IMG/VR virus record: IMGVR_UViG_3300037042_000655
Span: 1-31,496 of that record
Length of the DNA stretch: 31,496 nucleotides
Origin: a virus
Direction: 5' to 3' (one strand)
Shown: in pieces, positions 3,581 to 20,248 of the stretch
How the letters are laid out: the number at the start of each line of letters is the position of its first letter
How positions within the stretch are numbered: position 1 is the first letter of the stretch
Position numbers and translations under genes: made by a program
Notes under the pieces: model-generated
Seen by the model: the letters and a program-made list of their open reading frames with translations, nothing else
Told to the model about the DNA's origin: nothing
The model's database searches: none

Positions 3581-3955
3581 ATGAACCACTTAGAAAGATA
3601 CGAGTACTGGAAAGCTCAACAAGAAAGACAAGTTAATTTTGAATTTACAAACTACGCAATGGCAGATATTGAAAGACGAATAGGCAGGAGACCTCAAAGG
3701 ATTCAAGCCGTAATAGACTTAGAAAACTTTTTGAATGACTCAGAAAATAAGATAAGCGAAATCCCAAACGAAGGTATTAGGAACGCTAAAATTGAAAAGT
3801 TAAAGATTCTATACAAAGTCCACGATACTATTACTCAGATGCTAACTGCCGAGATGTATGCACTGGCTAAATTAGATGAGGCAAAAGAAAGAATAGCTGA
3901 ACTTGAGCAAATGAATTTTGATTTATTAAATAAAATTAATGTGCTTGAACTATAA
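3581..3955 (+). CDS. Coiled-coil early protein, unknown function
   Basis: 124 residues, nearly all predicted helix. The N-terminal part is rich in Arg and Glu (ERRIGRRPQR at 31-40). The C-terminal third (about 95-124) has heptad-like Leu/Ile spacing ending in LLNKINVLEL, so oligomerisation is likely. The start follows the HNH stop by one base. The gene ends at the border of control region 2 and is the last gene before a terminator-like hairpin. No catalytic motif is seen. Confidence 0.6.
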   Translation: MNHLERYEYWKAQQERQVNFEFTNYAMADIERRIGRRPQRIQAVIDLENFLNDSENKISEIPNEGIRNAKIEKLKILYKVHDTITQMLTAEMYALAKLDEAKERIAELEQMNFDLLNKINVLEL

Positions 3956-3966
3956 ATGTGCAAAAC
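3951..3966 (+). repeat. Second copy of the control-region 12-mer AATGTGCAAAAC
   Basis: AATGTGCAAAAC occurs here at 3955-3966 and at 1162-1173. Both copies are preceded by TATA and both lie just past the last stop codon of a gene block. In both, a TAnnTTTG box and then a T-tailed hairpin follow before the next gene. This may be an operator or a shared leader element. Confidence 0.55.
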
Positions 3967-4004
3967 AAGTTTACAACTGCAACAAGAAAACGAAATCAAT
4001 AAAT

Positions 4005-4012
4005 TAAATTTG
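4005..4012 (+). promoter_or_regulatory. Candidate -7 box TAAATTTG in control region 2
   Basis: Matches TAnnTTTG exactly. No TTG is found at the usual spacing upstream, which lowers confidence. The placement, between the shared 12-mer and the hairpin, mirrors control region 1. Confidence 0.3.
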
Positions 4013-4039
4013 TATTGTTTCATAGGTATTTATTCTATT

Positions 4040-4076
4040 AAAAGGGTAGTTTCTGTGGTAGAGGGCTACCCTTTTT
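4040..4076 (+). terminator. Rho-independent terminator or attenuator before SSB-like gene
   Basis: AAAAGGGTAG (4040-4049) pairs with CTACCCTTTT (4066-4075), giving 10 bp and a 16-base loop, with T continuing to 4076. It lies 30 bases before the ATG at 4106. The loop repeats GGTAG (4057-4061), which could compete for the CTACC of the right arm. Confidence 0.75.
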
Positions 4077-4105
4077 AAAAACAAAAAAACTAATTCAAAA
4101 TATAA

Positions 4106-4372
4106 ATGCTCATTAATATTAACCTTTGTCTATCGGACATTCCAAGAGAAAAGATTTTCACTTCAAAAAATGGTAAGCAGTACCTTTCTATTTGCGTAAC
4201 TGAAAGAAAAGAACCTGACAACTATGGCAACGATTTAACTGCCTATGTCAATCAAACCAAAGAGGAAAGGGAAGCAAAGCAGCCACGCCAGTTTATCGGA
4301 ACTGCTAAAACTTTAACAAAAAAAGCTATTTCGGAATTTGTTAAAAGAGTTGGTGATAATATCCCATTCTAA
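4106..4372 (+). CDS. Candidate single-stranded DNA-binding protein
   Basis: 88 residues. Predicted beta-rich N-terminal half (LININLCLSDIPREKIF, then GKQYLSICVTERK) followed by a charged linker and the C-terminal end VGDNIPF. That end closely resembles the acidic DDIPF tip by which SSB proteins recruit partners. This short form, about 90 residues, is known from Bacteroidota phages. The core aromatic residues cannot be assigned with certainty. It stands between the coiled-coil gene and NinG in the replication and recombination block, which supports an ssDNA role. The gene has its own upstream control region. Confidence 0.6.
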   Translation: MLININLCLSDIPREKIFTSKNGKQYLSICVTERKEPDNYGNDLTAYVNQTKEEREAKQPRQFIGTAKTLTKKAISEFVKRVGDNIPF

Positions 4373-4374
4373 TT

Positions 4375-5004
4375 ATGAAGCCTAAAAAGTGCAAATTTTG
4401 TAAAGTCTCTTTTGAACCAGCAAAACCACTTCAACAAGTTTGCACTCCAGCCTGCGCAATTGAACTAAGCAATCAGGTTAAAGCCAAGTCAGAAAAGAAA
4501 GAAAAAGTTAAGATAAGAAAAGAGCTAAGGGAATCAGCAAAGACTATTTCTAACTATCGGAAGGACCTTCAGATAATAATTAACAAGATAATCCGAACAA
4601 TTGACGAAGGACACAACTGTATAAGTTCAGGCAGGAAGTACAAATCAAATGACCAAGCTGGGCATTATTACTCAGTAGGGGCTTACCCTCACTTGAGATT
4701 TAACCTTCATAACATATACTCTCAATCAGTCGCAGATAACTTATACAAGTCAGGCAACCCGATTGGTTTTACTCAAGGATTAATTAGGGACTTTGGCGAA
4801 GATTGGGTAAAGATAGTCACTAAATTGCCTGAAGAGTACCGAGAGCTGAAACTGGATAAGGAAGGTATTAAAGAAGCCATACTAAGAGCAAAGGACTTTT
4901 TAGTTAGAATCAATGACTATAAAGAAACTGAGATATTTTTGCCGAGTCAACGAATCTTTTTAAGACACTTAGGGAATAAAGAAATCGGGATATACAATGA
5001 ATAA
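4375..5004 (+). CDS. ninG: NinG/Rap-family recombination protein
   Basis: 209 residues, the usual NinG length. The zinc-binding N-terminus has CKFC (6-9) and CTPAC (23-27), followed by a basic coiled-coil linker (about 35-60). The core has NCISSGRK (81-88), AGHYYSVG (95-102), LRFNLHNI (107-114) and KSGNP (125-129), which match lambda NinG in order. NinG (Rap) is a structure-specific nuclease that acts on recombination intermediates. Position 84 of the usual CISCGR motif is Ser instead of Cys, a small departure. It overlaps the next gene by 8 bases. Confidence 0.88.
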   Translation: MKPKKCKFCKVSFEPAKPLQQVCTPACAIELSNQVKAKSEKKEKVKIRKELRESAKTISNYRKDLQIIINKIIRTIDEGHNCISSGRKYKSNDQAGHYYSVGAYPHLRFNLHNIYSQSVADNLYKSGNPIGFTQGLIRDFGEDWVKIVTKLPEEYRELKLDKEGIKEAILRAKDFLVRINDYKETEIFLPSQRIFLRHLGNKEIGIYNE

Positions 5005-5747: not shown

Positions 5748-5992
5748 ATCAAATAATCTATGAACTCCTTTTACCATTGAAGCCAAAATGGGAAACATTT
5801 AAAAACGAGCATCATTCTACTTTTACAAATCAAGACTATACAATAGTGCAGGAAGCTTGGAGTTTAATGTTTGGCGCACCTCCGAGAAATATGGGCTGTC
5901 AAAGTTGCGTTCAGGAGCTAATAACACGAGTATTTAGACAATTTGACAATTTCACACCTGAAAAGAAAAGGAGAAAAAATGCTAAAATTTAA
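5744..5992 (+). CDS. Small protein with CxxC motif, unknown function
   Basis: 82 residues. Mostly helical, with GCQSC (51-55) in the middle and a very basic tail (EKKRRKNAKI). The start is coupled to the membrane protein by ATGA. Its tail overlaps the glycosyltransferase start by 14 bases and contains that gene's Shine-Dalgarno (AAAGGAG, 5966-5972). I know similar small CxxC proteins next to glycosyltransferases in Bacteroidota phages but no function. A metal site is unlikely with a single Cys pair. Confidence 0.55.
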   Translation: MNQIIYELLLPLKPKWETFKNEHHSTFTNQDYTIVQEAWSLMFGAPPRNMGCQSCVQELITRVFRQFDNFTPEKKRRKNAKI

Positions 5993-6734
5993 ACATTCGG
6001 GGAACGCTGGTGATGTAATATACTCACTCAACGCAATTAAACAAGTATGCGACATTAACGATACTCAAGCAGTACTATACCTTGATTTGAATGTTCCAAT
6101 TACAGGTAATATATTCAATCACCCAGTAGGTAATGTGATGCTGAACGAGTATATGTACAAGAATCTACGACCATTATTACTTAACTGCGATTTTATTTCG
6201 GATGTTATGGTTTATTCAGGTCAAAAATTAGACTACGATTTAGATAAGTTTAGGGATATTGGATTTCATTTAGGAGCTGGTGATATAAAGAAATGGTACT
6301 ACTATGTTTATCCTGAAATGACTTTTGATGTTGAAGGACCTATTTTTGAATTCAACAATAAGAAAGAAGACTACATTATTATCAATAGGACAAATAGATA
6401 CCAGAATGGGCAGATAGACTACTTAATTCTGAATGAATACGATAATCAAAAGCTATTCGCTGGGACTAAGGATGAATTTGAGGCAATGAAAAACACTATT
6501 AATAAACTTGAATACTTAGAAGTAAAAGATTTTTTAGAGTTAGCTCACTACATAGACAAGAGTAAAGTATTCATCGGTAATCAATCAATGTGTTTTGCAA
6601 TTGCCGAGCAGTTACAAACGGAGAGAATACTTGAAATATGTTATCATTGTCCAAATGTCATCCCTAATGGTGGTGATTTTTACGATATTTTTAATCAAAA
6701 CGGATTTATAAACGCACTAAACAAATTAATATAA
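5979..6734 (+). CDS. Glycosyltransferase, GT9/heptosyltransferase-like
   Basis: 251 residues from ATG 5979, chosen because of AAAGGAG six bases upstream and because homologous proteins begin at this motif. A start at 5943 would add 12 residues. HSGNAGDVIYSLNAI (5-19) matches the N-terminal acceptor-side loop of GT-B enzymes of family 9. The C-terminal KVFIGNQSMCFAIAEQL followed by PNVIPNGG resembles the nucleotide-sugar-binding half. Known family role: transfer of heptose or a related sugar to LPS-like acceptors. I infer modification of a host surface glycan or of the virion. It leads directly into the methyltransferase (1-base overlap). Confidence 0.65.
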   Translation: MLKFKHSGNAGDVIYSLNAIKQVCDINDTQAVLYLDLNVPITGNIFNHPVGNVMLNEYMYKNLRPLLLNCDFISDVMVYSGQKLDYDLDKFRDIGFHLGAGDIKKWYYYVYPEMTFDVEGPIFEFNNKKEDYIIINRTNRYQNGQIDYLILNEYDNQKLFAGTKDEFEAMKNTINKLEYLEVKDFLELAHYIDKSKVFIGNQSMCFAIAEQLQTERILEICYHCPNVIPNGGDFYDIFNQNGFINALNKLI

Positions 6735-7300
6735 TGGCAGAAACAAAAAAATCAAGAGAAAGAAGACTCAAGGAAGGATTCTTTGAAAAGTACATTGACG
6801 GTAAAAAAGTTATCGACATTGGAGTAGGTAGGTTTGACACTTGGGATGGAGCAGATGCAGTTAGTCCTGATTGTGATACTTGGGACAAAGACAATGGCAA
6901 TGCTGAATTTATGCAAGGAGTAGAAAACGAAACTTATGATTGTGTTTACAATAGTCATTTGCTTGAACATTTAAACGAGCCAGTATTAGCTATTCACAAC
7001 TGGATGCGAATATTAAAAAGTGGAGGACATATGATTATTGCAGTTCCTCATCGTGACTTGTACGAAAGAAAAACACACTTACCAAGTAAATGGAATGGAG
7101 ACCATAAGTTTTTTATTTTACCTGAGACAGACGAACTACCTGATACGAAAAGTCTAAAACGATTAATTGAGGAAGGATGCGCTGAGTATCAATTTGAAAT
7201 AATCGCAATTGATGTACACGACAGTTGCACTAATAAAGATAGAACTGATGAACACGGAGATGGTGAATATCAAATTCAAGCAATAGTTAAAAAGCTGTGA
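6734..7300 (+). CDS. Class I SAM-dependent methyltransferase
   Basis: 188 residues. SAM-binding motif I is KKVIDIGVGR (24-33), a variant of the usual D-x-G-x-G. The post-motif YDCVYNSHLLEHL (68-80) and LKSGGHMIIAVP (94-105) are typical of Methyltransf_11-type enzymes acting on small molecules or sugars. PHRDLYE and KWNGDHKFF follow. No DNA-methylase motif (DPPY or the PC Cys motif) is seen, so DNA is an unlikely substrate. It lies between two glycosyltransferases with coupled starts, so methylation of the transferred glycan is a plausible role. Confidence 0.75.
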   Translation: MAETKKSRERRLKEGFFEKYIDGKKVIDIGVGRFDTWDGADAVSPDCDTWDKDNGNAEFMQGVENETYDCVYNSHLLEHLNEPVLAIHNWMRILKSGGHMIIAVPHRDLYERKTHLPSKWNGDHKFFILPETDELPDTKSLKRLIEEGCAEYQFEIIAIDVHDSCTNKDRTDEHGDGEYQIQAIVKKL

Positions 7301-8355
7301 AAATACTTGTAATTATACCTGAGCCAGTAACTGGAGTAGAATATCATCGGTTAATTATTCCTTTTGAAAATATGGGTGCTGATTACCAAATTACTGGCAG
7401 TAAACACATAGATAATCAATCAGATATTTTCTTTCAAGAGTTTGATTTAATTTATACAAGCTCAGTAGTTAGTAAGTTAGGTTTTCAAGAAGTACTTTGG
7501 GCGCAGTTAAAAAGATTAGGTATACCAGTCATTGTTGATAGAGATGATGACTGGGTACTTCCTCACGACCATATAATGAAAAGCGATTGGGTTAAGAACA
7601 AAACAGCTGCCCAAATAGTCTATAATTTGAAGATGGCTGATGCTGTATCTGTTCCTACTGAGTACTTAGCACAAAAGGCAAGGCAATACAACAAGAATGT
7701 ATTTGTTATACCTAACGCAATAGACTTTAATCAGCCTCAATTCAAAACGGACCAAAAAGTAAAGGACTTAAAAACTGAGAAAGTTCACATAGGCTGGAGC
7801 GGTTCAGTAACGCATTTTCACGATGTAATGATGCTAACTGATACTTTTATGCAGCTAAATTCTAATCCTGATACTAAAGGAAAATACAGAGTAGTACTTA
7901 GTGGATTTGTAGAAGGCGATATGATATGGAAGGAATATGAAAAGATTTTCACTTCAGGATTTAAAATAGCAGAAGACCAATACTGCCGTATAAACGGAAT
8001 GGATGTCTATACCTATGCAAGTGCTTATGATTTAATGGATGTCGGTTTAATTCCTTTGAAAGATACCGAATTTAACCGATGTAAGTCTGAACTTAAAATG
8101 ATGGAAATGGGTGCTAAGAAGCTACCAGTAATTGTCTCAAATCAATATCCCTATACCAATATCGCCAAACACGCAGAGAACTGCTTAATGGCATCTAAAA
8201 AGGATTGGTTCAAAAATATCAAAAGAATGATTGACAGCAAAGAGTTAAGAGAAGATTTAGGCGCAGCCTTATATGAAGAAATATTTGCAAATTATAATAT
8301 ATTAAATATAAACGAACTAAGAAAGGAGATGTTTAATTATGTCAAAAATAGGTAA
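7297..8355 (+). CDS. GT-B glycosyltransferase (GT1/GT4-like)
   Basis: 352 residues. GTG start at 7297 in a 4-base overlap (GTGA) with the methyltransferase stop. Domains: an N-terminal Rossmann-like half with VEYHRLIIPF (14-23) and DRDDDW (81-86); then VIPNAID (137-143), IGWSGS (165-170), and the donor-binding block GLIPLKDTEFNRCKSELKMM (250-269) with Glu266 in the place of the usual retaining-GT glutamate. Known role: transfer of a sugar from a nucleotide donor. The target is unknown. The end overlaps the terminase small subunit by 17 bases, so the cassette is transcribed into the packaging genes. Confidence 0.75.
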   Translation: MKILVIIPEPVTGVEYHRLIIPFENMGADYQITGSKHIDNQSDIFFQEFDLIYTSSVVSKLGFQEVLWAQLKRLGIPVIVDRDDDWVLPHDHIMKSDWVKNKTAAQIVYNLKMADAVSVPTEYLAQKARQYNKNVFVIPNAIDFNQPQFKTDQKVKDLKTEKVHIGWSGSVTHFHDVMMLTDTFMQLNSNPDTKGKYRVVLSGFVEGDMIWKEYEKIFTSGFKIAEDQYCRINGMDVYTYASAYDLMDVGLIPLKDTEFNRCKSELKMMEMGAKKLPVIVSNQYPYTNIAKHAENCLMASKKDWFKNIKRMIDSKELREDLGAALYEEIFANYNILNINELRKEMFNYVKNR

Positions 8356-8773
8356 ACCAAAAGCGATAGAAAGTCCTGAAATGATGCTTGAGTTATTTGA
8401 GAGATATAGAGAGGAGACAAAATCAAATCCAATTCTCAAACATACATTTGTGGGAAAGGATGGTAAATCGGTTTATGAGAAAAGGGAAAGAGCATTAACG
8501 ATAGATGGTTTTGAAGTGTATTGTTTCAAGGAAGGCATTATAAATGACTTAGGTGATTACTTCTCTAATAAAGGTGAGCGATACACTGACTATGCCACCA
8601 TCTGTACGCGTATAAGGCAAATTGTCAGAGAGGACCAAATACAAGGAGGTATGGCTGGAGTGTATAACCCGAGCATAACCCAACGATTAAATGGGTTAAC
8701 TGAGAAAGTTCAAACTGAGCAAAATATAAATGTCAATAAGCTACCTGAATGGTTGACAAAACCGATTGAGTAA
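8339..8773 (+). CDS. terS: Terminase small subunit
   Basis: 144 residues. The N-terminus (KPKAIESPEMMLELFERYREE) and the aromatic middle (LTIDGFEVYCFKEG, then GDYFSNKGERYTDYATICTRI) match small terminase proteins of Bacteroidota phages, with helix-turn-helix-like segments for DNA recognition. The C-terminus ends in LPEWLTKPIE. It is directly followed by the large subunit (TAATG, one-base overlap), the standard order. The role is to recognise viral DNA and regulate the motor. Called mainly on this pairing and general resemblance. Confidence 0.75.
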   Translation: MSKIGKPKAIESPEMMLELFERYREETKSNPILKHTFVGKDGKSVYEKRERALTIDGFEVYCFKEGIINDLGDYFSNKGERYTDYATICTRIRQIVREDQIQGGMAGVYNPSITQRLNGLTEKVQTEQNINVNKLPEWLTKPIE

Positions 8774-9924
8774 TGTTCAATCCTAACTTTGTCTTTTTAG
8801 AAAAGTCAGTAAAGAGTAAACGAATAGTCGCACTACAAGGCGGTACTCGTTCAGGTAAGACTTATTCAGCTCTGCAATGGTTAATTCGGTTATGCCTCAA
8901 ACACGAGGGAATAACCATTTCAATAGTTAGGAAAACTTTACCTGCTTTGAAGTCCTCAGCAATGCGTGACTTTATTGAGATACTTACTTCAATAAATTTA
9001 TATAACGAGTCGGACCATAACAAGTCGGAGAATACTTATATACTCAATAAAAACTTGATTGAGTTCTTTTCGGTAGACGATGCTCAAAAAATACGAGGAA
9101 GGAAAAGAGATATACTATTTGTAAACGAAGCAAACGAGATAGACCTTGAAGACTGGAGGCAGTTACTACTTAGAACCACAGGAAAGGTTATTATTGACTA
9201 TAACCCTTCAGACTTTGAGCACTGGATTTATGACCAAGTATTAACCCGTGACGATTGCGGATTGATTATAACTACCTACAAGGATAACCCACATTTACCC
9301 GATGCTTTAAAACGAGAAATAGAAAGTTTAGAACAGGCTGATCCTGAATACTGGAAAATCTTTGGACTTGGTGAGAGAGGGCAGCTAATGGGTTTAGTCT
9401 TCAACAATTGGACCAATCAATTAGCGGTACCTAACGAGGCTAACTTTATTGGGTACGGTTTAGACTGGGGGTTTAGTGCTGACCCAACAGCATTGGTTAG
9501 TGTTTGGAAATACGAGCAAGAACTTTACATAAGAGAGGAGCTGTACGAACGAGGTTTGACTAACCAAGATATAGCTGAACGATTGAAGAGTTTGGAGATA
9601 GGTAGAAAGGAGATATTTGCTGACTCTGCCGAACCTAAAAGTATTGAGGAAGTGTACAGACTTGGTTACAATATTAAACCAACACAGAAAGGGAAAGACA
9701 GCATTATAAACTCAATTGACATTCTTAGACGCTACAAACTACACCTAATCGGAAACAACCTGCAAAAGGAGTTCCGCACCTATAAATGGAAAACCGACAA
9801 AGCAGGAAAGATAGTGAATGAACCAGTAGACTTTAATAACCACTTAATAGATGCCACAAGGTACTTAGCCTTGATGAAACTACAAGAACACAAACGAGGA
9901 CAATATGTTACAATTCGTGCCTAA
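8773..9924 (+). CDS. terL: Terminase large subunit
   Basis: 383 residues. ATPase: Walker A GGTRSGKT (23-30), Walker B ILFVNEAN (114-121, with Glu119 catalytic), coupling motif around IIDYNPS (140-146). Nuclease: GLDWGFSADPTA (229-240) with Asp231, FADSAEPKS (282-290) with Asp284, and NNHLIDATRY near the C-terminus with an Asp completing the RNase H-like metal site. This is the PBSX/Terminase_3 type. It packages DNA into the prohead and cuts it. The length is slightly short for the family (usually over 400) but all motifs are present. An A/T-rich gap of 18 bases follows. Confidence 0.95.
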   Translation: MFNPNFVFLEKSVKSKRIVALQGGTRSGKTYSALQWLIRLCLKHEGITISIVRKTLPALKSSAMRDFIEILTSINLYNESDHNKSENTYILNKNLIEFFSVDDAQKIRGRKRDILFVNEANEIDLEDWRQLLLRTTGKVIIDYNPSDFEHWIYDQVLTRDDCGLIITTYKDNPHLPDALKREIESLEQADPEYWKIFGLGERGQLMGLVFNNWTNQLAVPNEANFIGYGLDWGFSADPTALVSVWKYEQELYIREELYERGLTNQDIAERLKSLEIGRKEIFADSAEPKSIEEVYRLGYNIKPTQKGKDSIINSIDILRRYKLHLIGNNLQKEFRTYKWKTDKAGKIVNEPVDFNNHLIDATRYLALMKLQEHKRGQYVTIRA

Positions 9925-9926
9925 TT

Positions 9927-9939
9927 AAATATATAATAT
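9927..9939 (+). promoter_or_regulatory. A/T start motif AAATATATAATAT (copy 1)
   Basis: Identical 13-mer to 23578-23590, ending 3 bases before the ATG at 9943. Related A/T-rich strings lie in front of other late genes at 16971, 17985, 20238 and 25326. It may be a late promoter element or a translation-start context. Confidence 0.4.
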
Positions 9940-9942
9940 AGA

Positions 9943-10533
9943 ATGAAACGCAATTACTATAATTTAACCTTAAAAGACTTCATAGAACTGCAAAAGGTAA
10001 CTGAGTCGGGAATTGAAGGTAAGAAAAAGAAGCTTTCAATTGTCTATAAAATTGAACTTGAGTTCTTTGATGGTTTTACCTCTGAGCAAATAATAAGCCT
10101 ATACAGTGACTTTGAGAAGTTAGAAGCTCAACCGATTAAGACAACCTACAAGAAACGAGTTAAAGTAGGCGGTAGATGGTTCTTTGTGGATTACAGACTG
10201 AGTCAAATTAGTAGCAGTCAATTTATAGACATCTCACACTTTTCTAAAACAAATCCGATTGAAAACATACACAAGATAGTAGCTTCGTGCATTAGACCAA
10301 TTAACTGGAAATTTGGAAAGCCAAGTAAATACAACGGAGACGAACACGAAGAAATTAGCGAGTTACTTTTAAACTCAATGAAAGTTAAAGACGCTTACCC
10401 GATTATGCTTTTTTTTTGCACTCTCTCAAGCAAATTATCGGACAATATCCTAACCTATTTCCTAAGTCAGAAGGAGGAGACATTGAACAGGCTCAGAACT
10501 TTTATACAAAATGGGGATGGGTCGCAACAATAG
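9943..10533 (+). CDS. Candidate tail-assembly chaperone (G-like product)
   Basis: 196 residues. Order: YNLTLKDFIELQKV near the start, a Lys-rich stretch, LSIVYKIELEFFDGF, a linker, a small beta region (GGRWFFVDYRL), SSSQFIDISHF and a helical end. This resembles proteins I know in Bacteroidota phages as tail-assembly chaperones, analogous to lambda gpG. The T9 run at 10409-10417 gives the heptamer T-TTT-TTT in frame, and a -1 slip there joins the frame that ends at 10673. Both frames after the slip look protein-like. It is followed by tail genes and the tape measure, as expected, though 4.5 kb ahead of it. Confidence 0.55.
   Translation: MKRNYYNLTLKDFIELQKVTESGIEGKKKKLSIVYKIELEFFDGFTSEQIISLYSDFEKLEAQPIKTTYKKRVKVGGRWFFVDYRLSQISSSQFIDISHFSKTNPIENIHKIVASCIRPINWKFGKPSKYNGDEHEEISELLLNSMKVKDAYPIMLFFCTLSSKLSDNILTYFLSQKEETLNRLRTFIQNGDGSQQ
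10409..10417 (+). promoter_or_regulatory. Candidate -1 ribosomal frameshift site (T9)
   Basis: The zero-frame codons are CTT-TTT-TTT-TGC (10408-10419). A -1 slip on the Phe codon at 10414-10416 moves reading to TTG at 10416, giving an open frame to 10673. T-TTT-TTT is a good slippery heptamer. I see no strong hairpin downstream. The alternative is a missing T in the sequence, which would merge the frames in one gene. Confidence 0.55.
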
Positions 10534-10673
10534 ACAACCTTGCTAACCACGACAAGACAAAATGGGACTACTTTTTTAATTTAGGACTGAAGGAGTTTTT
10601 TAACATAGTAAGCTACCACATAGAACACACTGAACAGATAAAGAAAGAGAATGGCAGAAACAGACTACACTAA
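10416..10673 (+). CDS. Frameshift extension of the tail-chaperone gene (T-like part)
   Basis: This frame has no good start of its own: it begins with a TTG inside the T9 run. It is most likely reached from 9943 by a -1 shift, giving a fusion of about 243 residues (158 plus 85). Its sequence FYTKWGWVATIDNLANHD followed by KTKWDYFFNLGLKEFFNIV is typical of C-terminal segments of tail-chaperone-like proteins in this host group. It ends 23 bases into the next gene. In lambda the G-T fusion binds the tape measure and tail tube; a similar job is inferred here. Confidence 0.55.
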   Translation: MHSLKQIIGQYPNLFPKSEGGDIEQAQNFYTKWGWVATIDNLANHDKTKWDYFFNLGLKEFFNIVSYHIEHTEQIKKENGRNRLH

Positions 10674-11277
10674 ACTTTTAGGAGACTTAGGCACAGACGC
10701 TGAGGCTGGACCGATTCAGTTTGAGTCTATTATTGAACAAGCTATAGTTAGGTTTGTCAATGGGTTAACCGACACGATGAAATCTAACCTTACCGAGTTA
10801 GATGCTTACTATGCGGATTCAGAGTTAGTTCAGTCTATTATTACTTTGCCTTTGAGTGCCAATGGTTCTAACTTTGAGATGTCTATTGAGATGAACTACT
10901 ACGGTGACTTTTTAAACGAGGGAGTAAGTGGTACCCGTAACAAATTCAATTCTCCTTATTCATTCAAAAAAGAGTCAGTCAGTCCAGCCTTTAACAAGTC
11001 ACTAAGAAAGTGGATTACAAAAAGAGGCATTCCAATTGAAAGCAGGTACTCACAAACTCGTAATTTAACTAAAGACCAAAGAAAGAAAAAACAAATAGAT
11101 GAAAAAACCCAAATGGCTTACGCAATGGGTATAGGTATAAAGAGAGAAGGTATAAAACCAACTAACTTTATCAATAATGCAATAAGTGAGGAGGCAGTAG
11201 AACCATTTGCACAGGCCTTAGCTGATGCTTTGGGAAGGTCACTTCAAATAACAATAACTAAAAATATTTTAAAATGA
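10651..11277 (+). CDS. Tail-completion/adaptor-like virion protein
   Basis: 208 residues. The middle has MNYYGDFLNEGVSGTRN (about 82-98), where YGDFLNEG is the usual motif of HK97 gp10-like tail-completion proteins in this host group (Y-x-x-x-x-x-x-G). A Lys/Arg-rich stretch and a helical C-terminal end (EPFAQALADALG) follow. The start overlaps the frameshift product by 23 bases. Known role of the family: joining head and tail or finishing the tail end. This call is on weak similarity and position. Confidence 0.45.
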   Translation: MAETDYTKLLGDLGTDAEAGPIQFESIIEQAIVRFVNGLTDTMKSNLTELDAYYADSELVQSIITLPLSANGSNFEMSIEMNYYGDFLNEGVSGTRNKFNSPYSFKKESVSPAFNKSLRKWITKRGIPIESRYSQTRNLTKDQRKKKQIDEKTQMAYAMGIGIKREGIKPTNFINNAISEEAVEPFAQALADALGRSLQITITKNILK

Positions 11278-12482
11278 TAATAAATTCACAGCCTAATAAT
11301 TGGCAGAATGTTTATAACGAGATGGTATTCGGATTGGAAAGCACCAACGCAACTGCTGCGGGTTTTCAATTCTTAGTGGACATAAATGTAAGCGGACAAA
11401 CGAATCCAGTCGCAAGGTTAACTTACCCTAAACAGCCTAACATTAATACAGTTGACGTAGATGTGAGCGAGGTATTGAGGCAATACGTTAGCTATGACTT
11501 TGCAAGTTATAATGTCTCAGGCATCTATCATTGCATCAATTCTAAAGTTGACTATTGGGTAGAGTTTGGTGAGGTGAGGAATAACGCTTCAGGTATTCCT
11601 GTAATCTATCCGAACTTAACTGGTTTCTATGCAAGTGGTAATAATGCTCATTCAACAAATGCTATTTTTGATTTTTTAGATTGGAGTAAAACAGCCTTCA
11701 CAAGTTTAAACATCGGTCCTCCTGAAAGTTCACTTAAGACTTTGAACCAAACTACCTACCAAGAAAAGTTGAGACAAGGTGAAGAGCGATTCTTAACTAT
11801 ATTTGATAGAGAGGGTTTATTTGCTAATATTAATGTTCAGGTACTTGATAAAAATCTAAATTTATTAATTGAATCAAATGCTGGATTCACTCCGATTGGG
11901 TCAATTGTTTCAATCAATGTCGCTAACTCAGGTAATGCAAGTGGATACTACAAATCAGTTTACGATGCAGCCTTTGATTATCCGAATGCGGTGTACTATC
12001 GGGTTAACGGACAGAACACAGCAGGTAGCGGAGCCGTGACTTATTTTAGCAGAACTTTCCTAATTGATACAACTTGCCAAAAGTATTCACCAATTAGATT
12101 GCATTGGTTAAACAACTTAGGAGGCTTTGATGCTTATACATTTACGAAAGTCAGCAGAAACTTTACAGACATTGAAAGAAAAATGTTTAAGAAGTTCCAA
12201 CCTTTAAACTATCCAAAGACCTTCAGAGCGAAAACAAACTACTTTACTAAACTTACGGACACGATCCAAATAAATTCCGATGGTTTAACCGATGCCGAAT
12301 GGATAGGCTTAAAAGAGTTAGTGCTAAGTCCAGTGGTTATGATGGAATACGGAGCGACTTATATACCAGTCAACATTAAAGAGAGCAACTACGAGGAGAA
12401 GATATACATAAACGACAGACAAATAAGCTCTCTTCAGTTAACGATTGAATACACATTTGACAATTATCGCCAATCATTATGA
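11274..12482 (+). CDS. Tail structural protein
   Basis: 402 residues with a high Asn, Thr, Ser and Tyr content and predicted beta structure. It carries RLHWLNNLGGFDAYTF (about 277-292), a stretch I know from conserved tail proteins of Bacteroidota phages, and FDNYRQSL at the end. No enzyme motif is visible. The gene lies between the adaptor-like gene and the 870-residue tail protein, with 4-base overlaps (ATGA) on both sides, so it is likely part of the tail tip or baseplate. A distal-tail-like role is a guess. Confidence 0.55.
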   Translation: MIINSQPNNWQNVYNEMVFGLESTNATAAGFQFLVDINVSGQTNPVARLTYPKQPNINTVDVDVSEVLRQYVSYDFASYNVSGIYHCINSKVDYWVEFGEVRNNASGIPVIYPNLTGFYASGNNAHSTNAIFDFLDWSKTAFTSLNIGPPESSLKTLNQTTYQEKLRQGEERFLTIFDREGLFANINVQVLDKNLNLLIESNAGFTPIGSIVSINVANSGNASGYYKSVYDAAFDYPNAVYYRVNGQNTAGSGAVTYFSRTFLIDTTCQKYSPIRLHWLNNLGGFDAYTFTKVSRNFTDIERKMFKKFQPLNYPKTFRAKTNYFTKLTDTIQINSDGLTDAEWIGLKELVLSPVVMMEYGATYIPVNIKESNYEEKIYINDRQISSLQLTIEYTFDNYRQSL

Positions 12483-15091
12483 ACCAAACAGAACTAAAAA
12501 TAGTAGTTTACAACGTTTCAGGAATAGTAACGGATTCTTTTAACGTGGACTTATACGACTCGGTACCATTGCCGATAAACAAGTCTATCATTGACATTAG
12601 AGAACCTGAGAAAAGAGAAAGCGATTACTCAAAATCTATAACGATTCCTGGCACTGCAAATAATCATTCTTTATTCTCAAGTATCTTTAACTTGGATAGG
12701 TCAGTAATAAACACAACTAATTTAAACTTTCAGCCTGACTTTAACCCGAACTTAAAAGCTGAGGCGATACTTTACAGAAAAGGAATCCAACAGTTAAGAG
12801 GTTACTTGCAATTGCTAAGTATTAAGAATGTAGATGGAGCGATAGAGTACGAATGCGTTATGATTGGTAAGTTCGCAAACCTCTTTCAGGACTTAGGAGA
12901 GTTGAGTTTGCAAGAGTTAGACTTATCTGAGTTTGACCACGTTTGGAATAAAACCAACGTAGAGAATAGCTGGGACACTTCAATCGTTAAGAACGGGACT
13001 GCCTATGTAAACTTCAACGCAAGTGCGCAACCCGATGGAACTGGATATGTTTATCCACTAATAGACAGAGGCAATTCAAACGGCAATACAGAAAACGATT
13101 ACAACTTGGCTACTTTTTATCCAGCAGTTTATGCTAAACAAGTAGTTGATTCTATTTTTGCTGGTGCAGGTTACAGGTACGAATCAAACTTTTTTAATAG
13201 CCAACGATTTAAGAATCTAATAGTTCCTTTCTGCGGTGGCGATTTTAGAATGACTGAGCAAGAAGTTGAGGATAGAACTTTTTTAATGACTAATAACACA
13301 GCATTAACTTATACCAGTTCAACAGCTAATCAATCGCAAACATTTAAAGTAGGTTTAAATACAAATGACAATGACACAAACCCAGCAGGAGTAAGTACGG
13401 CTAATAATTGGTGGTTAGCTCCAAGCGGATTGAATGGCAAATATAGATTTGCTTTTGAAGGCACAATCTCAGCAAGTGGAACGGGTGGAGTTATGTCAGT
13501 TTATTTGAGCATTATTAGAGATAGAAGCTCAGCATTAACTACAATAGGGCAAATAAATATAGGGGTAATTGCGGGTAACAGTTATGATGTAAGTTTACAA
13601 ACAATACCCTCTGATATAATCGCAGGGGATAAGGTTTATTTAAATATGTACTATCGCCCAATTTTTACAAGTGGGAACGCAACAAATACTTCAATAACAT
13701 TTGCAAGTGGATTCGCTCTTTACTCAAATCCTGAAGCAACTTACCAAGAAGGCCAAACAATTGACATAGCATCGGCACTACCTGAGAAAACAAAGCAAAC
13801 AGAGTTTTTGCAGTACTTAATTAAGGCTTTCAATTTATATGTTGAAGTAGATAAGATAGACCCAAAGAAACTAATCATTGAGCCGAGAGATGAATTTTAC
13901 ACTGAGAACTTAGTAGACCTTACAAACTACTTAGATGTATCTCAAGAGCTTGAAATAAAGCCTATGGGTTTACTTGACTTCAGAGTATTTGAAATGTCTT
14001 ACAAGTCAGATTCAGACGAATTCAACAAAAGATACGAGGACGTTTTTAGAGAACCATTTAGCACTTTAAAATTTAATGTTAATAATGACTTCGTAAGAGA
14101 AGCCAAAACAGTTGAGCTTGGATTCTCTGCAAGTCCTTTGGCAGATTCAACGGCAAACGATAGGGTACTAACTAAGATAAGACCGCAAGACCCTTCAACA
14201 GGTTCAAGCCAATTACCTGTTTATAATATCCGACTTTTGCAGTACGGAGGTTTAGTAAATACTTCAACGGGTTGGAACTTATGGCAAACCGCAGCGACTG
14301 GATTTGTAAGGTATGAAGAGTTCCCTTATGCGGGAATGTTAAATAGTGTTACAGCTCCGACTTTTAGTTTAGAATGCTCAACAGCAAGAGCTTACCAGTA
14401 TGGAAGTAAACCTGCAATAACTACGGCCAATCTTTATAACTCTTATTGGCTTAAAACCATTTCAGAAATTACTGACAAAGATTCTAAACTTGTTAGCGGT
14501 TACTTTCATTTATCCCCTAATCAATTGGCGAATTTATCTTTCAGAGATTACTACCGAATTGACCAACAGTATTACAGGCTGCACAATGTGGAATACGATA
14601 TGAACTCGGATGATCCAGTCAAGATTGAGTTTTTAAAATTAAAGTTAGCTCCAGCATTTATAAGTGAGAATACAACTACTAACGGAGGATACGCTACTTT
14701 TGACCCTGAGCAACCGAATCTACCTGAAATACTTTTGCCCGATTTATTTAAAGACGAAAACAATCCTTTTTTAAGTGACAGAAGTAAGAACTACACAGAC
14801 ATAATATACACTAACGATGGTATAGTGTCAATAGATTTTACGCAAAAGATTTGGCTTTTGGATGGTAACAGCAGAGTCTATTTACCCGATGCAAATTTGC
14901 CTAAATTAAAAACGGGCTACCCTTTAATTATTACTCACAATCAAGGTTCAAGCGATATAACTATTTACCCAAGTTCAGGTCAGTTAATCGGAGGTGAATC
15001 AAGTTTTACTTTAACGACTAAGTATACAGCTTGGTTTGTTCCTTATTCAGGAAATTGGACAGTAATAATGAATAACAACACAAACGTATGA
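12479..15091 (+). CDS. Large tail-tip/baseplate protein
   Basis: 870 residues, the longest protein of the window. The N-terminal region (LKIVVYNVSGIVTDSFNVDL, then REPEKRESDYSKSITIPGT at about 41-59) matches large tail proteins of Bacteroidota phages, where it probably forms the hub. The middle has many Asn/Ser/Thr-rich beta segments. The last 100 residues (GYPLIITHNQGSSDITIYPS, then TAWFVPYSGNWTVIMN) look like a small beta domain of fibre proteins that carries surface-binding parts. Receptor binding is plausible. The stop overlaps the ATG of a 42-residue gene (ATGA at 15088). Confidence 0.6.
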   Translation: MNQTELKIVVYNVSGIVTDSFNVDLYDSVPLPINKSIIDIREPEKRESDYSKSITIPGTANNHSLFSSIFNLDRSVINTTNLNFQPDFNPNLKAEAILYRKGIQQLRGYLQLLSIKNVDGAIEYECVMIGKFANLFQDLGELSLQELDLSEFDHVWNKTNVENSWDTSIVKNGTAYVNFNASAQPDGTGYVYPLIDRGNSNGNTENDYNLATFYPAVYAKQVVDSIFAGAGYRYESNFFNSQRFKNLIVPFCGGDFRMTEQEVEDRTFLMTNNTALTYTSSTANQSQTFKVGLNTNDNDTNPAGVSTANNWWLAPSGLNGKYRFAFEGTISASGTGGVMSVYLSIIRDRSSALTTIGQINIGVIAGNSYDVSLQTIPSDIIAGDKVYLNMYYRPIFTSGNATNTSITFASGFALYSNPEATYQEGQTIDIASALPEKTKQTEFLQYLIKAFNLYVEVDKIDPKKLIIEPRDEFYTENLVDLTNYLDVSQELEIKPMGLLDFRVFEMSYKSDSDEFNKRYEDVFREPFSTLKFNVNNDFVREAKTVELGFSASPLADSTANDRVLTKIRPQDPSTGSSQLPVYNIRLLQYGGLVNTSTGWNLWQTAATGFVRYEEFPYAGMLNSVTAPTFSLECSTARAYQYGSKPAITTANLYNSYWLKTISEITDKDSKLVSGYFHLSPNQLANLSFRDYYRIDQQYYRLHNVEYDMNSDDPVKIEFLKLKLAPAFISENTTTNGGYATFDPEQPNLPEILLPDLFKDENNPFLSDRSKNYTDIIYTNDGIVSIDFTQKIWLLDGNSRVYLPDANLPKLKTGYPLIITHNQGSSDITIYPSSGQLIGGESSFTLTTKYTAWFVPYSGNWTVIMNNNTNV

Positions 15092-15216
15092 TAAATAAAT
15101 TTAAAGAATTAATAGAGAGAACTGAATTTGAAGAGCTAATTAAATTAATGGATTTAGCGGATTCAAGTATATTAAATATAATCATTAACACAGAAAACGA
15201 GGTATTGAATGGCTAA
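15088..15216 (+). CDS. 42-residue acidic helical protein, unknown function
   Basis: ATG 15088, TAA 15214-15216. The start overlaps the tail gene stop by 4 bases and the end overlaps the tape-measure start by 8. The protein is a single acidic helix (FKELIERTEFEELIKLMDLA). The tight fit between two essential genes makes a real small gene plausible. Its role could be a tail-assembly helper or only a coupling leader. Nothing more can be seen. Confidence 0.5.
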   Translation: MINKFKELIERTEFEELIKLMDLADSSILNIIINTENEVLNG

Positions 15217-16945
15217 AAATGTAGTAGAAATAGACGCACGGGTAAAAACTGGCGACTCAGCAGAGAAGGTAGACGAGTTAAGTAAGTCAACGGAAGGACT
15301 TAATAAGAACCTAAAAGAAACACAGAAGGAAGCCAAAGAGACTGAGAAAAAACTTGATAAGGCTACCGATGCAGTAGGCAAAATGCCAGGCCCTATCGGA
15401 GGTGCTGTGGATGGGTTTAAGAATATGGCTAATTCTTTTAAAGCTATTATTGCTTCACCTATCGGAATGGTATTAGCAGCTGTTGCAGTAGTATTAGGAA
15501 CTTTAACAGCTTTATTCTCAAGCTTCAGTCCTATTGTTGACTTTCTGTCTGATAAGATTGCTTTATTAAATGGAGCTTTTAGGGGATTACAAACTCAGTT
15601 AGCAAGCTTTATTCAAGGCACTGGATTTTCAACTGAGAAGATTCAAGAGCAAGCCTTAGCAATGCAAGAGGCTGAAAGAGCTACACGAGACTATGAAGAC
15701 TCTATATCCGCTTTGAACCTTACACAAGCGCAACAGGAAAGAGCTATTGACGTAAACCTAAAAAAGTTAAAGAATAAAAACATAACTGAGAAAGAGTCTA
15801 ACGCAATAATTCAGCAAACAATACAACTTCAGAAACAGCAAATTGACGATTTACAAAAGAACCAACAGAAAGAAACTGAAATTCTAAAACTAAAAGTCAA
15901 AGGCTACGGAGGTACCAATAGACAAATATTAGAAATAGTCAGAGGCCGTTCAGTAGCTGAGTTAAATACAGGAAACGAAGACTTAGATAAAGCTTTAATT
16001 GCACTTCAGGAGAACTACGGGAAGAGGGTTAATGCAGTCAGCACCTACGAGCAAAAATATGAAAGAATACAAAACGTAAGAGACTCTCAAGAACAAAAAT
16101 ATCAAGGTAAAAGAGATGCGAGAAGGAAAGCAGAAGAGGAGCAAAGAAAGAAAGAGGTAGAACAATCGGCCAAACTTTTAGAACAATACGACAAGCAACA
16201 AAAGGACAGAGAAGAGGCTGTTAAAACTGGATTTGAAAAGACCTCTAAACTAACTGAAGATTACTACAAAAAACAAGCAACTGATTTAGTAAACGCAAAC
16301 TTGAGCCAACAAGATTTAAAAAAGGCGCAAGATGAATTAGAACTCCAAAGACTTAACCAACAGCTTGAAAATGCTAAGATGTATGGACAGTCAACTGTTG
16401 ACATTGAGAAAGCAATAGCAGATAAAAAGTATTCAATTAATAAAGAGAATGCCGATGCTACACAGAAACTTGAAAATGAAACAAGAACTAATAGAGAGAA
16501 AGCCTTAGAATCTTATTCTAATACACTAAAAACCTTTGCAAGTGTATTGGGAGAAAGCACAGCAGAAGGAAAAGCCTTAGCAGTAGCAGCCGCAACAATT
16601 GACACTTACTTAGGAGCAGTTAAAGCATACAATACGCAGTTAATTCCGAGCGACCCTACCTCACCATTCAGAGGAGCTTTGGCAGCAGCAGCAGTAGTGG
16701 CAGCAGGTATATCAAACGTAAATAAAATTTTAGCTGTACAAGTACCAGGCGGAGGAGGTGGAGGTTCTGCGAGTATGTCAGCCCCACCAATGACAAGGCC
16801 TTCAAGTTCATTCACACGAATAGACAATACCGAACCGATTGACGTAAACAATACAGGATTAACAAAAGTCTATGTGACTGAAACCGACATAACCAATACA
16901 CAGAAGAAAGTTGACTCTATTAAAGCTAAGGCTGTCATAGGTTAA
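15209..16945 (+). CDS. Tail tape-measure protein
   Basis: 578 residues. Nearly all helix. An N-terminal coiled coil rich in Lys and Glu (about 18-56), a hydrophobic segment at about 79-103 (SPIGMVLAAVAVVLGTLTAL), long coiled coils (about 150-430), an Ala-rich helix (about 450-500) and a Gly-rich linker with GGGGGG near 505. This is the typical design of tape measures, which set tail length and help DNA entry. If about 1.5 angstroms per residue applies, the tail would be roughly 85 nm. It follows tail genes and precedes the protease. Confidence 0.8.
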   Translation: MAKNVVEIDARVKTGDSAEKVDELSKSTEGLNKNLKETQKEAKETEKKLDKATDAVGKMPGPIGGAVDGFKNMANSFKAIIASPIGMVLAAVAVVLGTLTALFSSFSPIVDFLSDKIALLNGAFRGLQTQLASFIQGTGFSTEKIQEQALAMQEAERATRDYEDSISALNLTQAQQERAIDVNLKKLKNKNITEKESNAIIQQTIQLQKQQIDDLQKNQQKETEILKLKVKGYGGTNRQILEIVRGRSVAELNTGNEDLDKALIALQENYGKRVNAVSTYEQKYERIQNVRDSQEQKYQGKRDARRKAEEEQRKKEVEQSAKLLEQYDKQQKDREEAVKTGFEKTSKLTEDYYKKQATDLVNANLSQQDLKKAQDELELQRLNQQLENAKMYGQSTVDIEKAIADKKYSINKENADATQKLENETRTNREKALESYSNTLKTFASVLGESTAEGKALAVAAATIDTYLGAVKAYNTQLIPSDPTSPFRGALAAAAVVAAGISNVNKILAVQVPGGGGGGSASMSAPPMTRPSSSFTRIDNTEPIDVNNTGLTKVYVTETDITNTQKKVDSIKAKAVIG

Positions 16946-16949
16946 AACT

Positions 16950-16970
16950 TATCTAAAAAAAACTATCTAA
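16950..16970 (+). repeat. Short tandem TATCTAA repeats before the protease gene
   Basis: TATCTAA occurs at 16950-16956 and 16964-16970, 14 bases apart, followed by AAATAT just before the ATG at 16975. The 29-base gap holds nothing else. It may be a regulatory element of the capsid block or chance in AT-rich DNA. Confidence 0.3.
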
Positions 16971-16974
16971 ATAT

Positions 16975-18603
16975 ATGGCTAAACTTCCTTTATACGAGCT
17001 GCTCATCAACGAAGACGAAGAGACTGGAGTAGACTTTATTGCTTTGGTTGATTCTCCTGCTATTGAGTACGACTGGGTAGCTTTTGAAAGTCAATTTGAG
17101 ACTTACAGCGACTATCCTAAGGCTGCGAGTGAGAATGCAAAAAGAGCGATTGAGTTAAAAGAAAAATACAACTTAGATTGTGGCACTCAAGTAGGATGGG
17201 TTAGAGCTTCTCAATTAGCAAATGGAGAGAATCTGAGTAGAGAAACGATTGCGAGAATGTCAGGTTTTGAAAGGCACAGAGACAATTCTAAAGGTGACCC
17301 GAAAGAGGATTGCGGAGCTTTGATGTGGTTAGCTTGGGGCGGAGACGAAGGTGTAGAGTGGGCAAGTAGAAAACTAAAACAGATTGACGAATTCGTAGTA
17401 GAACCAAAGGCAGGAGAAGACAAGAACGAGTTTATTAGTAGATGTATTTCTGTTGAGGTCGGAAATGGAATTGAACAAGAACAAGCTGCTGCTATTTGCT
17501 ACACTAAATGGGATAAGAAAAACTTTAACTTTAAAACTACCGACAAACAAATTATCTCAGGAGCCGCTATGATTCCCGACAAACCTATTTATAGAAGGGG
17601 AAAAGATGGCGAAGAGTACAACGTAGTTTTCTCAAAAGAGACCATTCAAAAAATAGTTGAGAGATACTTTAAAAATCAGTACGGAACTAACTTTAATCTT
17701 CAGCATAAAAAGAATATGTTGGCGGATGGGGTGTACTTGATTGAGTCTTTTATTATTGATTCAGAAAGAGGAATAAAAACTCCTGAAGGCTTTGACAATT
17801 TGCCCGATGGGTCTTGGTTTATTTCCTGCAAAGTAGACAATGAAGAGATTTGGAACGACTATATCAAGAGTGGTAAGTTTAAAGGATTCTCAGTAGAAGG
17901 ATTATTTACGGATAGAAAAGTAGAGATGGTTTCAAATGTTCAAGAAGCTATTGCATTGATTGATAAATTACAATTAAATAAAACAAATATATATACAAAT
18001 AATATGAGCGATGTAAAAGTGCTTTTAAGCAAATTAAAGGAGATATTCACAGAAGAAGCTCCTATGTCTTTTGAAGAGGCAAAATTAGCCGATGGATTAA
18101 CCATTATTAAGTGGGAAGGACCATTAGCAGAAGGTACTAGCGTAATGGTAGTAAGTGAATCAGGAGAAGTTCCTGCGCCCGATGGTGAACACGAGCTTCA
18201 AGATGGTAGAAAAATTACTGTTGAAAACGGAAAAGTAACTGCCTTAGAAGTTCCTGAAGTTATGCCAACAGAAGTAGAGCCTTCAGTAGAAGTAGAAATC
18301 GAGGCTAAAGAAAAGATGAATGAGTATTATATGCCGATGATTGAGGAATTAGCTGCTAAGGTTATGAAAATGGAGGGAATGATGGCAGCACTTGAGGCTA
18401 AAATAGCTGAAAAGATGGGCGCAACAGAGGAGAAAATGAATACTCAAAAAGATGCTTTCTCTAAATTAGTTGAGATAGTTGAGAAGTTAGCAGATGCACC
18501 TTCTGAAGTAGTAGAAGCTAAACCTTTTAATGTAAATTTTCAAGCTGAGAAAGATAATCAGTACAATAAATTAAACGAAATTTTAAACTTTATAAATAAA
18601 TAA
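16975..18603 (+). CDS. Prohead protease (XkdF/S78-like) fused to scaffold
   Basis: 542 residues. Residues about 47-137 form a small domain common in Bacteroidota phage proteases (YPKAASENAKRA, then ANGENLSRETIARMSGFERH, then GGDEGVEWA). Residues 151-180 have a second short motif (EFISRCISVE, then QAAAICYTKWD). The serine protease domain spans about 190-320, with likely His244 (NLQHKKN) and Ser306 (KGFSVEG). The C-terminal 200 residues are acidic and end in a coiled coil (Met-rich, about 440-510), typical of scaffold. The protease matures the prohead and the scaffold guides capsid assembly. An internal ATG at 18004 (residue 344) could also make the scaffold alone. Confidence 0.8.
   Translation: MAKLPLYELLINEDEETGVDFIALVDSPAIEYDWVAFESQFETYSDYPKAASENAKRAIELKEKYNLDCGTQVGWVRASQLANGENLSRETIARMSGFERHRDNSKGDPKEDCGALMWLAWGGDEGVEWASRKLKQIDEFVVEPKAGEDKNEFISRCISVEVGNGIEQEQAAAICYTKWDKKNFNFKTTDKQIISGAAMIPDKPIYRRGKDGEEYNVVFSKETIQKIVERYFKNQYGTNFNLQHKKNMLADGVYLIESFIIDSERGIKTPEGFDNLPDGSWFISCKVDNEEIWNDYIKSGKFKGFSVEGLFTDRKVEMVSNVQEAIALIDKLQLNKTNIYTNNMSDVKVLLSKLKEIFTEEAPMSFEEAKLADGLTIIKWEGPLAEGTSVMVVSESGEVPAPDGEHELQDGRKITVENGKVTALEVPEVMPTEVEPSVEVEIEAKEKMNEYYMPMIEELAAKVMKMEGMMAALEAKIAEKMGATEEKMNTQKDAFSKLVEIVEKLADAPSEVVEAKPFNVNFQAEKDNQYNKLNEILNFINK
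18004..18603 (+). CDS. Possible nested scaffold protein (internal start)
   Basis: In-frame ATG at codon 344 of the protease gene would give a 199-residue protein beginning MSDVKVLLSKLKEIF. It starts where the protease domain ends and covers the acidic linker and coiled coil. AAATATATATA at 17985-17995 lies just upstream, like the A/T strings in front of other late genes. This arrangement is known for lambda C/Nu3, where the scaffold is the C-terminal part of the protease gene with its own start. Here it is inferred from sequence only. Confidence 0.45.
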   Translation: MSDVKVLLSKLKEIFTEEAPMSFEEAKLADGLTIIKWEGPLAEGTSVMVVSESGEVPAPDGEHELQDGRKITVENGKVTALEVPEVMPTEVEPSVEVEIEAKEKMNEYYMPMIEELAAKVMKMEGMMAALEAKIAEKMGATEEKMNTQKDAFSKLVEIVEKLADAPSEVVEAKPFNVNFQAEKDNQYNKLNEILNFINK

Positions 18604-18606
18604 AAT

Positions 18607-19563
18607 ATGTCATTTTCAGTAGGAACGTTAACTGGCTACGTTAAAGCCAATGAAAGAGAGTTATTGACTAAGTCTTTATTCTCAGCAAAATCAATCAGTT
18701 TGGCATCTAAAATGCCGAATGTAAAATCAGCAACTCAAGTAAACGTAATGGATACTGACGCTGTATTTCAATCGGGTACCTCTTGCGGTTTCTCAGCTTC
18801 AGGAACTACAACTTTCACCAAAAGAACTATGACTGTTTCTCCGATTAGAGTACACGAGGCTTTATGTCCAAAAACATTAGAGAACACTTGGTTAGGTTTA
18901 GTTTTACCTTCAGGTTCAAATCCAAAATCAATTCCATTTGAGCAACAATTCACAGACTTAAAAGCTGGTTTAATTGCACAAAATTTGGAGAGAGCTTTTT
19001 GGCAAGGTGACACTGGAAGTGGTGATAATAGTTTAGCTCAATTTGATGGTATGATTAAATTGGTTACAAGTGTTTCAGGTAGTGCAATTGCTGCTAACTC
19101 ATCTGCATTTATGAGTGGTGCGCCTTACTCTGCTACTGGTGGAATTACCGTATCAAATGTAAGTAACATCATTCAAGGTGTATTCAGAGCTATTCCTGCT
19201 GCATTGGTAGACAAAACCGATACAATGGTATTTGTAGGTATTGACACTTTTAGAACTTACCAATTAGCTTTAACTAACGCTAATTTATTCCATTACAACA
19301 CTGACGCTTCAAGCTCAAACTTTGAAATTACAATTCCTGGTACTAACATCAAAGTAGTAGGAGTAAATGGTTTGAACGGAACTAACAAAATCTACGCTTT
19401 AAGAACTTCAAATATGTTCTTTGGTTGCGATGTGTTAGGTGAGGAAAGTAAGTTTGAATTGTTCTGGGCGCAAGAAGCTATGGAGGTTCGTTATGTATGC
19501 GAATTCAAAGCAGGTGTACAAATCGCATTCCCAGCTGAAATCGTTTATTTCGTAGGAGCTTAA
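18607..19563 (+). CDS. Major capsid protein (HK97 fold)
   Basis: 318 residues, starting 3 bases after the protease-scaffold stop. The order of an N-terminal segment, ERAFWQGDTGSGDNSLAQFDG (about 129-149, an E-loop and spine-like region), VDKTDTMVFVGIDTFR (about 200-215), GTNIKVVGVNGLNGTNKIYA and a final beta strand (KAGVQIAFPAEIVYF) is typical of HK97-fold capsids in Bacteroidota phages. It forms the head shell. Position after the scaffold and before a strong terminator fits very high expression. Codons look rich in TTC, AAC and TAC. Confidence 0.85.
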   Translation: MSFSVGTLTGYVKANERELLTKSLFSAKSISLASKMPNVKSATQVNVMDTDAVFQSGTSCGFSASGTTTFTKRTMTVSPIRVHEALCPKTLENTWLGLVLPSGSNPKSIPFEQQFTDLKAGLIAQNLERAFWQGDTGSGDNSLAQFDGMIKLVTSVSGSAIAANSSAFMSGAPYSATGGITVSNVSNIIQGVFRAIPAALVDKTDTMVFVGIDTFRTYQLALTNANLFHYNTDASSSNFEITIPGTNIKVVGVNGLNGTNKIYALRTSNMFFGCDVLGEESKFELFWAQEAMEVRYVCEFKAGVQIAFPAEIVYFVGA

Positions 19564-19574
19564 TTAATAAACTT

Positions 19575-19618
19575 AAGAGGGGATTCGGTTTGAATGTTCA
19601 AGCCTTATCCCCTTTTTT
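19575..19618 (+). terminator. Strong terminator after the capsid gene
   Basis: AAGAGGGGAT (19575-19584) pairs with ATCCCCTTTT (19607-19616) with one G-U pair. Inside, GGTTTGA and TCAAGCC pair as a second stem, so the hairpin is long. T6 follows from 19613 to 19618. It lies 12 bases past the capsid stop and is a classic intrinsic terminator, probably partly read through to feed the genes that follow. Confidence 0.85.
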
Positions 19619-19644
19619 ATAAACAATAAAAGGAGAATAAAAAA

Positions 19645-20154: not shown

Positions 20155-20186
20155 GCTTCAAGATAGGGTTGTTTCATAGTTAGATT

Positions 20187-20217
20187 AGGTAGCTCACAAG
20201 GCTACCTTTTCTATTTT
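20187..20217 (+). terminator. Intrinsic terminator after the tube-like gene
   Basis: AGGTAGC (20187-20193) pairs with GCTACCT (20201-20207) around a 7-base loop, followed by TTTCTATTTTA. It ends 63 bases past the last stop. The T tract is interrupted, so strength is moderate. Together with the terminator at 19575-19618 it isolates the tube-like gene. Confidence 0.75.
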
Positions 20218-20237
20218 ATAACTTTTTGTATTTTTTC

Positions 20238-20248
20238 TATATACATAT
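20238..20248 (+). promoter_or_regulatory. A/T start motif before the portal block
   Basis: TATATACATAT directly precedes the ATG at 20249, after a T-rich stretch. It resembles the other late A/T strings. As it follows a terminator, a promoter for the portal operon is likely in or near this stretch (20208-20248). Confidence 0.4.

Follow-up and report, generated by a model that had tools for sequence, protein, structure and literature searches.

Ribosomal frameshifting has a textbook example in the recoding of phage tail assembly chaperone genes, and dnaX uses either a ribosomal or a polymerase mechanism, depending on the bacterium. In the searchable papers, polymerase slippage is documented for dnaX, insertion sequences, Shigella secretion genes, tssM and endosymbionts, and phage tail chaperones figure as ribosomal cases. 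The gene at 9943-10673 of the window, the whole 31.5-kb virus record analysed here, resembles lambda gpG/gpGT in that two predicted products share an N-terminal domain, the minor one carrying a C-terminal domain read in the -1 frame, and in that both genes lie in the late structural module. Several features set it apart. Lambda relies on a ribosomal slip at a heptamer, whereas the window gene has an invariant run of nine Ts (T9); its zero-frame form has a conserved tail of its own, 25-52 codons long in all complete members of the family; and it adjoins the terminase gene, rather than the tape measure gene as in lambda. No sequence similarity between the window protein and lambda gpG/gpGT was found.

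The reading favoured here, with a probability of about 0.64, is that polymerase slippage on T9 produces the two forms of a tail assembly chaperone. The gene would encode two proteins with residues 1-158 in common. Ribosomes that read the templated U9 message in the standard way would make the 196-aa short form. RNA polymerase, apparently that of the host, would sometimes slip on T9: the nascent RNA, held by nine rU:dA pairs, would realign and acquire an extra U, and standard translation of the U10 mRNA would then yield a 243-aa form with the -1-frame C-terminal domain. By analogy with lambda gpG/gpGT, the short form would be abundant and coat the tape measure protein, and the long form would be minor and recruit the tail tube subunit.

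The T9 is the sole A/T run of nine or more in the entire window. Across it the zero frame reads ATT ATG CTT TTT TTT TGC, which confirms that the heptamer T_TTT_TTT is in phase with the upstream frame, as the original prediction had held. From 10389 the -1 frame meets no stop codon until the one at 10671-10673; its length of 85 codons, counted from TTG at 10416, agrees with the prediction, as does the lack of a good start, there being no ATG within the segment. The zero frame had been credited with 39 further codons, and a recount from the last TTT codon gives 38. A one-base step back after that codon produces a 243-aa fusion with the predicted junction peptide ...PIMLFFLHSLK, which contains two Phe. 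At its end the -1 frame runs 23 nt into the following gene, across that gene's ATG (10651), and 117 nt separate the zero-frame stop from the same ATG.

Coordinates of the slip gene and its neighbours in the window
Feature	Position	Strand	Description
Zero-frame ORF, short product	9943-10533	+	196 aa: shared N domain (codons 1-158) and 38-codon zero-frame tail; AlphaFold2 mean pLDDT 87.3
T9 slip site	10409-10417	+	Context C-TTTTTTTTT-GC; holds in-phase T_TTT_TTT at 10410-10416; exact T9 in 151/151 distinct homologues and in Nonlabens phages P12024L and P12024S
Zero-frame tail over -1 frame	10417-10533	+	Predicted to prolong a long helix; length compared with simulations; -1 synonymous depression
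-1-frame C domain (KWGW...TIDNL...TKWDYFF)	10416-10673	+	Accessible by slip only; with N domain, 243-aa fusion
Next gene	10651-11277	+	Matches phrog_29822 (unknown function)
Terminase large subunit, directly upstream of slip gene	8773-9924	+	PF04466, phrog_2
Tape measure protein, same late module	15209-16945	+	phrog_1538, 1.3e-12

Late genes of the window (8773-22475) run in the order terminase, slip gene, three genes, tape measure, protease-like, capsid-like and portal, so that tail genes stand ahead of head genes, unlike the usual order. A methyltransferase-like gene and a glycosyltransferase gene (phrog_7162, 1.8e-62) occupy 5943-8355, just upstream of the terminase genes.

Homologue searches show that the run is kept without exception. 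Each of the 14 loci from the first search has T9, and both frames are open in it. A search based on the neighbouring terminase gene, and hence blind to the T run, gave 80 loci; pooled with the earlier ones, these comprise 59 distinct genes including that of the window, each with an exact T9 and the -1 relation, at N-domain identities down to 31%. Later searches with the C-terminal domain raised the total to 151 distinct metagenomic sites, and even where identity falls to about 26% every one has exactly nine Ts and joins its two parts by a -1 step; two cultured Nonlabens phages bring the number of distinct relatives with T9 to 153. The first loci (443 kb) contain 60 T9 runs, all but one of which are the slip site itself, together with five T8 runs and no T run longer than nine. 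The homologue comparison thus bears out the conserved -1 recoding of the original prediction: the T run, the in-phase heptamer and both frames are retained at all 151 sites, none has ten Ts, and none (0/151) has a single uninterrupted frame. The T9 with its two joined frames is neither chance nor sequencing error.

Two side observations concern the loci themselves. The lone off-site T9 in the first loci lies at 1320-1328 of locus L098. In IMGVR_UViG_3300042557_000175, both contig ends (L176 and L179) carry the region, in copies that share 87% identity across 2.2 kb, and the contig is thus probably a chimera assembled from two strains.

The run occurs in two codon registers. The common one ([CG]TT TTT TTT TG.) is found at 146 sites, and its two extra Ts fall in conserved Leu/Val and Leu codons. 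The second (GAT or GGT TTT TTT TT[GA]) belongs to the five distinct sites of one clade, L164, in which the run is moved one base over relative to the codons, its length is still nine, and the fusion has Asp/Gly and Phe in place of the flanking Leu/Val and Leu. Because T9 persists in the second register beside other residues, run length can be separated from amino-acid conservation, a separation that rests on this one clade of five distinct sites. Amino-acid conservation alone is insufficient to explain T9, since the flanking residues differ in the second register, and the heptamer alone is insufficient, since it needs just seven Ts. A G on the 3' side of the run was also considered as an obligatory polymerase pause signal and dropped, the base there being A in the Nonlabens phages and in some second-register sequences.

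Substitution patterns point to selection on both frames. In the overlap, variable sites in the window's group fall at -1 codon positions 1, 2 and 3 in 7/39, 3/38 and 11/38 cases, a coding pattern, and the -1 frame is under purifying selection. Over seven groups, synonymous variation in the -1 frame affects 80 of 241 codons within the overlap versus 150 of 262 past the zero-frame stop (CMH P = 1e-8, an approximate value, as codons within a group share ancestry). Synonymous sites are especially conserved in the first 12 codons past the slip in most groups. The zero-frame tail is longer than in simulations with random -1 recoding, at P 0.01-0.44 per lineage and P 0.0003 for seven lineages combined, one per deep lineage and chosen after the values had been seen. 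These results favour a functional zero-frame tail over one overlapped by another element, and they uphold the earlier description of the continuation as protein-like. Because -1 synonymous change is nearly halved in the overlap and the zero-frame tail is conserved and longer than chance, it is likely, as had been proposed by comparison with lambda G/GT, that both a short and a long product are made.

Bacterial RNA polymerase slips on runs of nine As or Ts (PMC5009743, PMC1088944, PMC6260861), with a bias to T runs (PMC6260861). Nine is about the length of the RNA:DNA hybrid and a length reported to provoke slippage by the bacterial enzyme. The family has two features of programmed transcriptional slippage: a homopolymer of about nine A/T within the frame overlap, at 151/151 sites and in two registers, and an overlapping-frame layout kept among non-identical homologues. 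The polymerase is favoured because exactly nine Ts are fixed in two registers, with no T10 and no detected stimulator, and from these sequence patterns it is probably the polymerase rather than the ribosome that slips. It also seems somewhat probable that selection acts on the length of the run, which is close to that of the RNA:DNA hybrid, and that a large phage family, probably of Bacteroidetes, sets its tail-chaperone ratio by polymerase slippage, where lambda and many other phages use ribosomal frameshifting. The same 243-aa product is expected from slippage by either machine. Altered mRNAs are predicted to leave distinct products: a U7 message would give the one-Phe peptide MLFLHSLK, and U8 or U11 messages would give products ending in FALSQANYRTIS.

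Programmed -1 ribosomal frameshifting at T_TTT_TTT in the style of lambda G/GT would make the same two products and is the somewhat unlikely alternative. The in-phase heptamer and the -1 fusion of the original prediction stand; its reading of the site as a heptamer slip accords less well with the data, the exact T9 in two registers and the lack of a detected stimulator fitting a polymerase better. The heptamer is never broken in any homologue or either register, as ribosomal slippage requires, yet nine Ts, not seven, are kept across two registers with different codons, even if run length and coding are told apart solely by the small second-register clade. Downstream structure or an upstream Shine-Dalgarno (SD)-like stimulator is common in -1 frameshifting and not obligatory, and lambda-type sites can function without strong stimulators. 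Among 28 representatives, downstream RNA structure, scored without pseudoknots, had mean z values of -0.05, 0.26 and -0.18 in three windows; and SD-like elements were absent except for one AGGA. Upstream terminator-like hairpins, like downstream hairpins and SD-like sites, did not exceed shuffles on average. The synonymous conservation just past the slip could mask an element. Known tail-chaperone recoding is ribosomal (PMC5009743), but E. coli ribosomes shift far less readily on U_UUU_UUU than on A_AAA_AAG, which makes the former a comparatively poor site (PMC5009743). Two further explanations do away with programmed slippage. Homopolymers in general mutate by slippage, so that replication slippage at the T run might toggle the long form between genomes; such phase variation is very improbable given that all 151 distinct assembled sites have T9, with no T8 or T10, and that selection acts on both frames. 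Some sequencing methods are likewise error-prone at homopolymers, but a sequencing or assembly error hiding ten Ts, or a decaying gene, is scarcely credible when T9 and the -1 relation recur in 151 distinct metagenomic sequences at identities down to about 26% and in two cultured phages, and when the -1 frame is under purifying selection.

As for function, a lambda G/GT-like tail assembly chaperone is likely in view of the two-form design, the location among the late genes and a weak match to the HK97 chaperone fold. The original prediction of a tail chaperone keeps these three supports and gains none from sequence families: no Pfam, PHROG or NCBIfam family names a function for the two-product protein. 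The HK97 tail assembly chaperone (2ob9) tops the VIA-align list of solved structures, although weakly (Z 3.7, 56 residues); Foldseek returned three weak matches annotated as tail assembly chaperone and, against the PDB, no match below E 0.6. Modelled alone, the C-terminal domain has low confidence (pLDDT 64) and weak matches. It has 16 invariant columns among 14 diverse members, and in the alignment of the window segment (10416-10673) with its homologues, 12 of 14 C domains have a match to a PHROG of unknown function, phrog_11101 (best E 3.6e-4). The two conserved frames predict short and frameshift-extended forms with a common N-terminal domain, as in chaperones, but the gene adjoins the terminase gene and lies three genes before the tape measure gene. 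Chaperone genes usually, though not strictly, come directly before the tape measure gene; their products bind tape measure and tube proteins and are missing from virions. It is unlikely, though compatible with either slippage mechanism, that the two-product protein is something other than a tail assembly chaperone, for example another late morphogenesis factor encoded beside the terminase. The three intervening genes, the lack of a named family and the weakness of the fold match speak for such a role; against it stand a two-form design with a common N-terminal domain, typical of tail chaperones, and the HK97 chaperone as best solved-structure match.

Cultured relatives were reached through a fold search, because tblastn of the fused proteins against the phage collection gave no match. 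With the predicted structure of the short form (pLDDT 87) as query, that search picked out an uncharacterised protein from Nonlabens phage P12024S. In both P12024L (genes _40/_41; 23946-24640 of JQ823123) and P12024S (_38/_39; 2001-2695 of JQ823122), a distant homologue follows the terminase gene, with T9 in the common register and the same -1 fusion; unlike in the window, an A follows the run. Joined by this slip, genes _40 and _41 of P12024L encode a protein that contains the KWGW motif, and profiles of the metagenomic family detect the P12024L frames among twelve phage records with E = 7e-4 (N) and 6e-6 (C). The two halves are annotated as separate hypothetical proteins in each genome and are probably one recoded gene. 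The same profiles found no significant member in Flavobacterium phage 6H, Polaribacter P12002L, Riemerella RAP44, Bacteroides BS-TP2 and BF1-4, Olleya Harreka_1, Cellulophaga phiST or Parabacteroides PM708P4, and a scan of genome contigs with the C-terminal domain yielded 95 pattern matches and no relative. The terminases closest to that of the window in the phage collection are from Bacteroides and Parabacteroides phages, and the cultured relatives have a flavobacterium as host; the virus is probably a phage of Bacteroidetes.

Other phages show related layouts. In the gut phage MT836763, an uninterrupted 182-aa gene after the terminase (3915-4463) has a weak N-profile match (E 0.008) and is possibly an unshifted relative. 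The fold relative R9VW65 (191 aa) probably lies at 10352-10927 on the minus strand of Flavobacterium phage 6H, without a T9 run; the frame after it resembles another C-terminal domain, and a different recoding may be in use there. The N-terminal model also has good matches, and the C-terminal model weak ones, in two uncharacterised viral proteins (258 and 243 aa), which is consistent with single-frame versions elsewhere.

The searchable literature, which leaves out most subscription papers, yielded no report of a tail chaperone with a slippage run. Annotation of genomes of this kind overlooks the C-terminal domain or lists it as a hypothetical gene of its own, which is the case in the Nonlabens phages; searches for the gene family are now possible, and the cultured phages make slippage directly testable. 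Among described polymerase cases, the insertion sequences also have a conserved nine-nucleotide run in a two-frame overlap, read as programmed transcriptional slippage (PMC1088944), and differ from the window gene in using A runs and in encoding transposases. Shigella flexneri mxiE and spa13 likewise place a homopolymer in overlapping frames, where added nucleotides lead to a longer fusion, and the spa13 extension runs into the beginning of the gene that follows, as in the window (PMC5009743, PMC1088944). These are type III secretion genes for unrelated proteins, and slippage is proven there, whereas we infer it for the window gene. If polymerase slippage is indeed at work here, the family would add a widespread, naturally replicated case controlled by run length, and its polymerase route to the end that lambda reaches on the ribosome would parallel dnaX.
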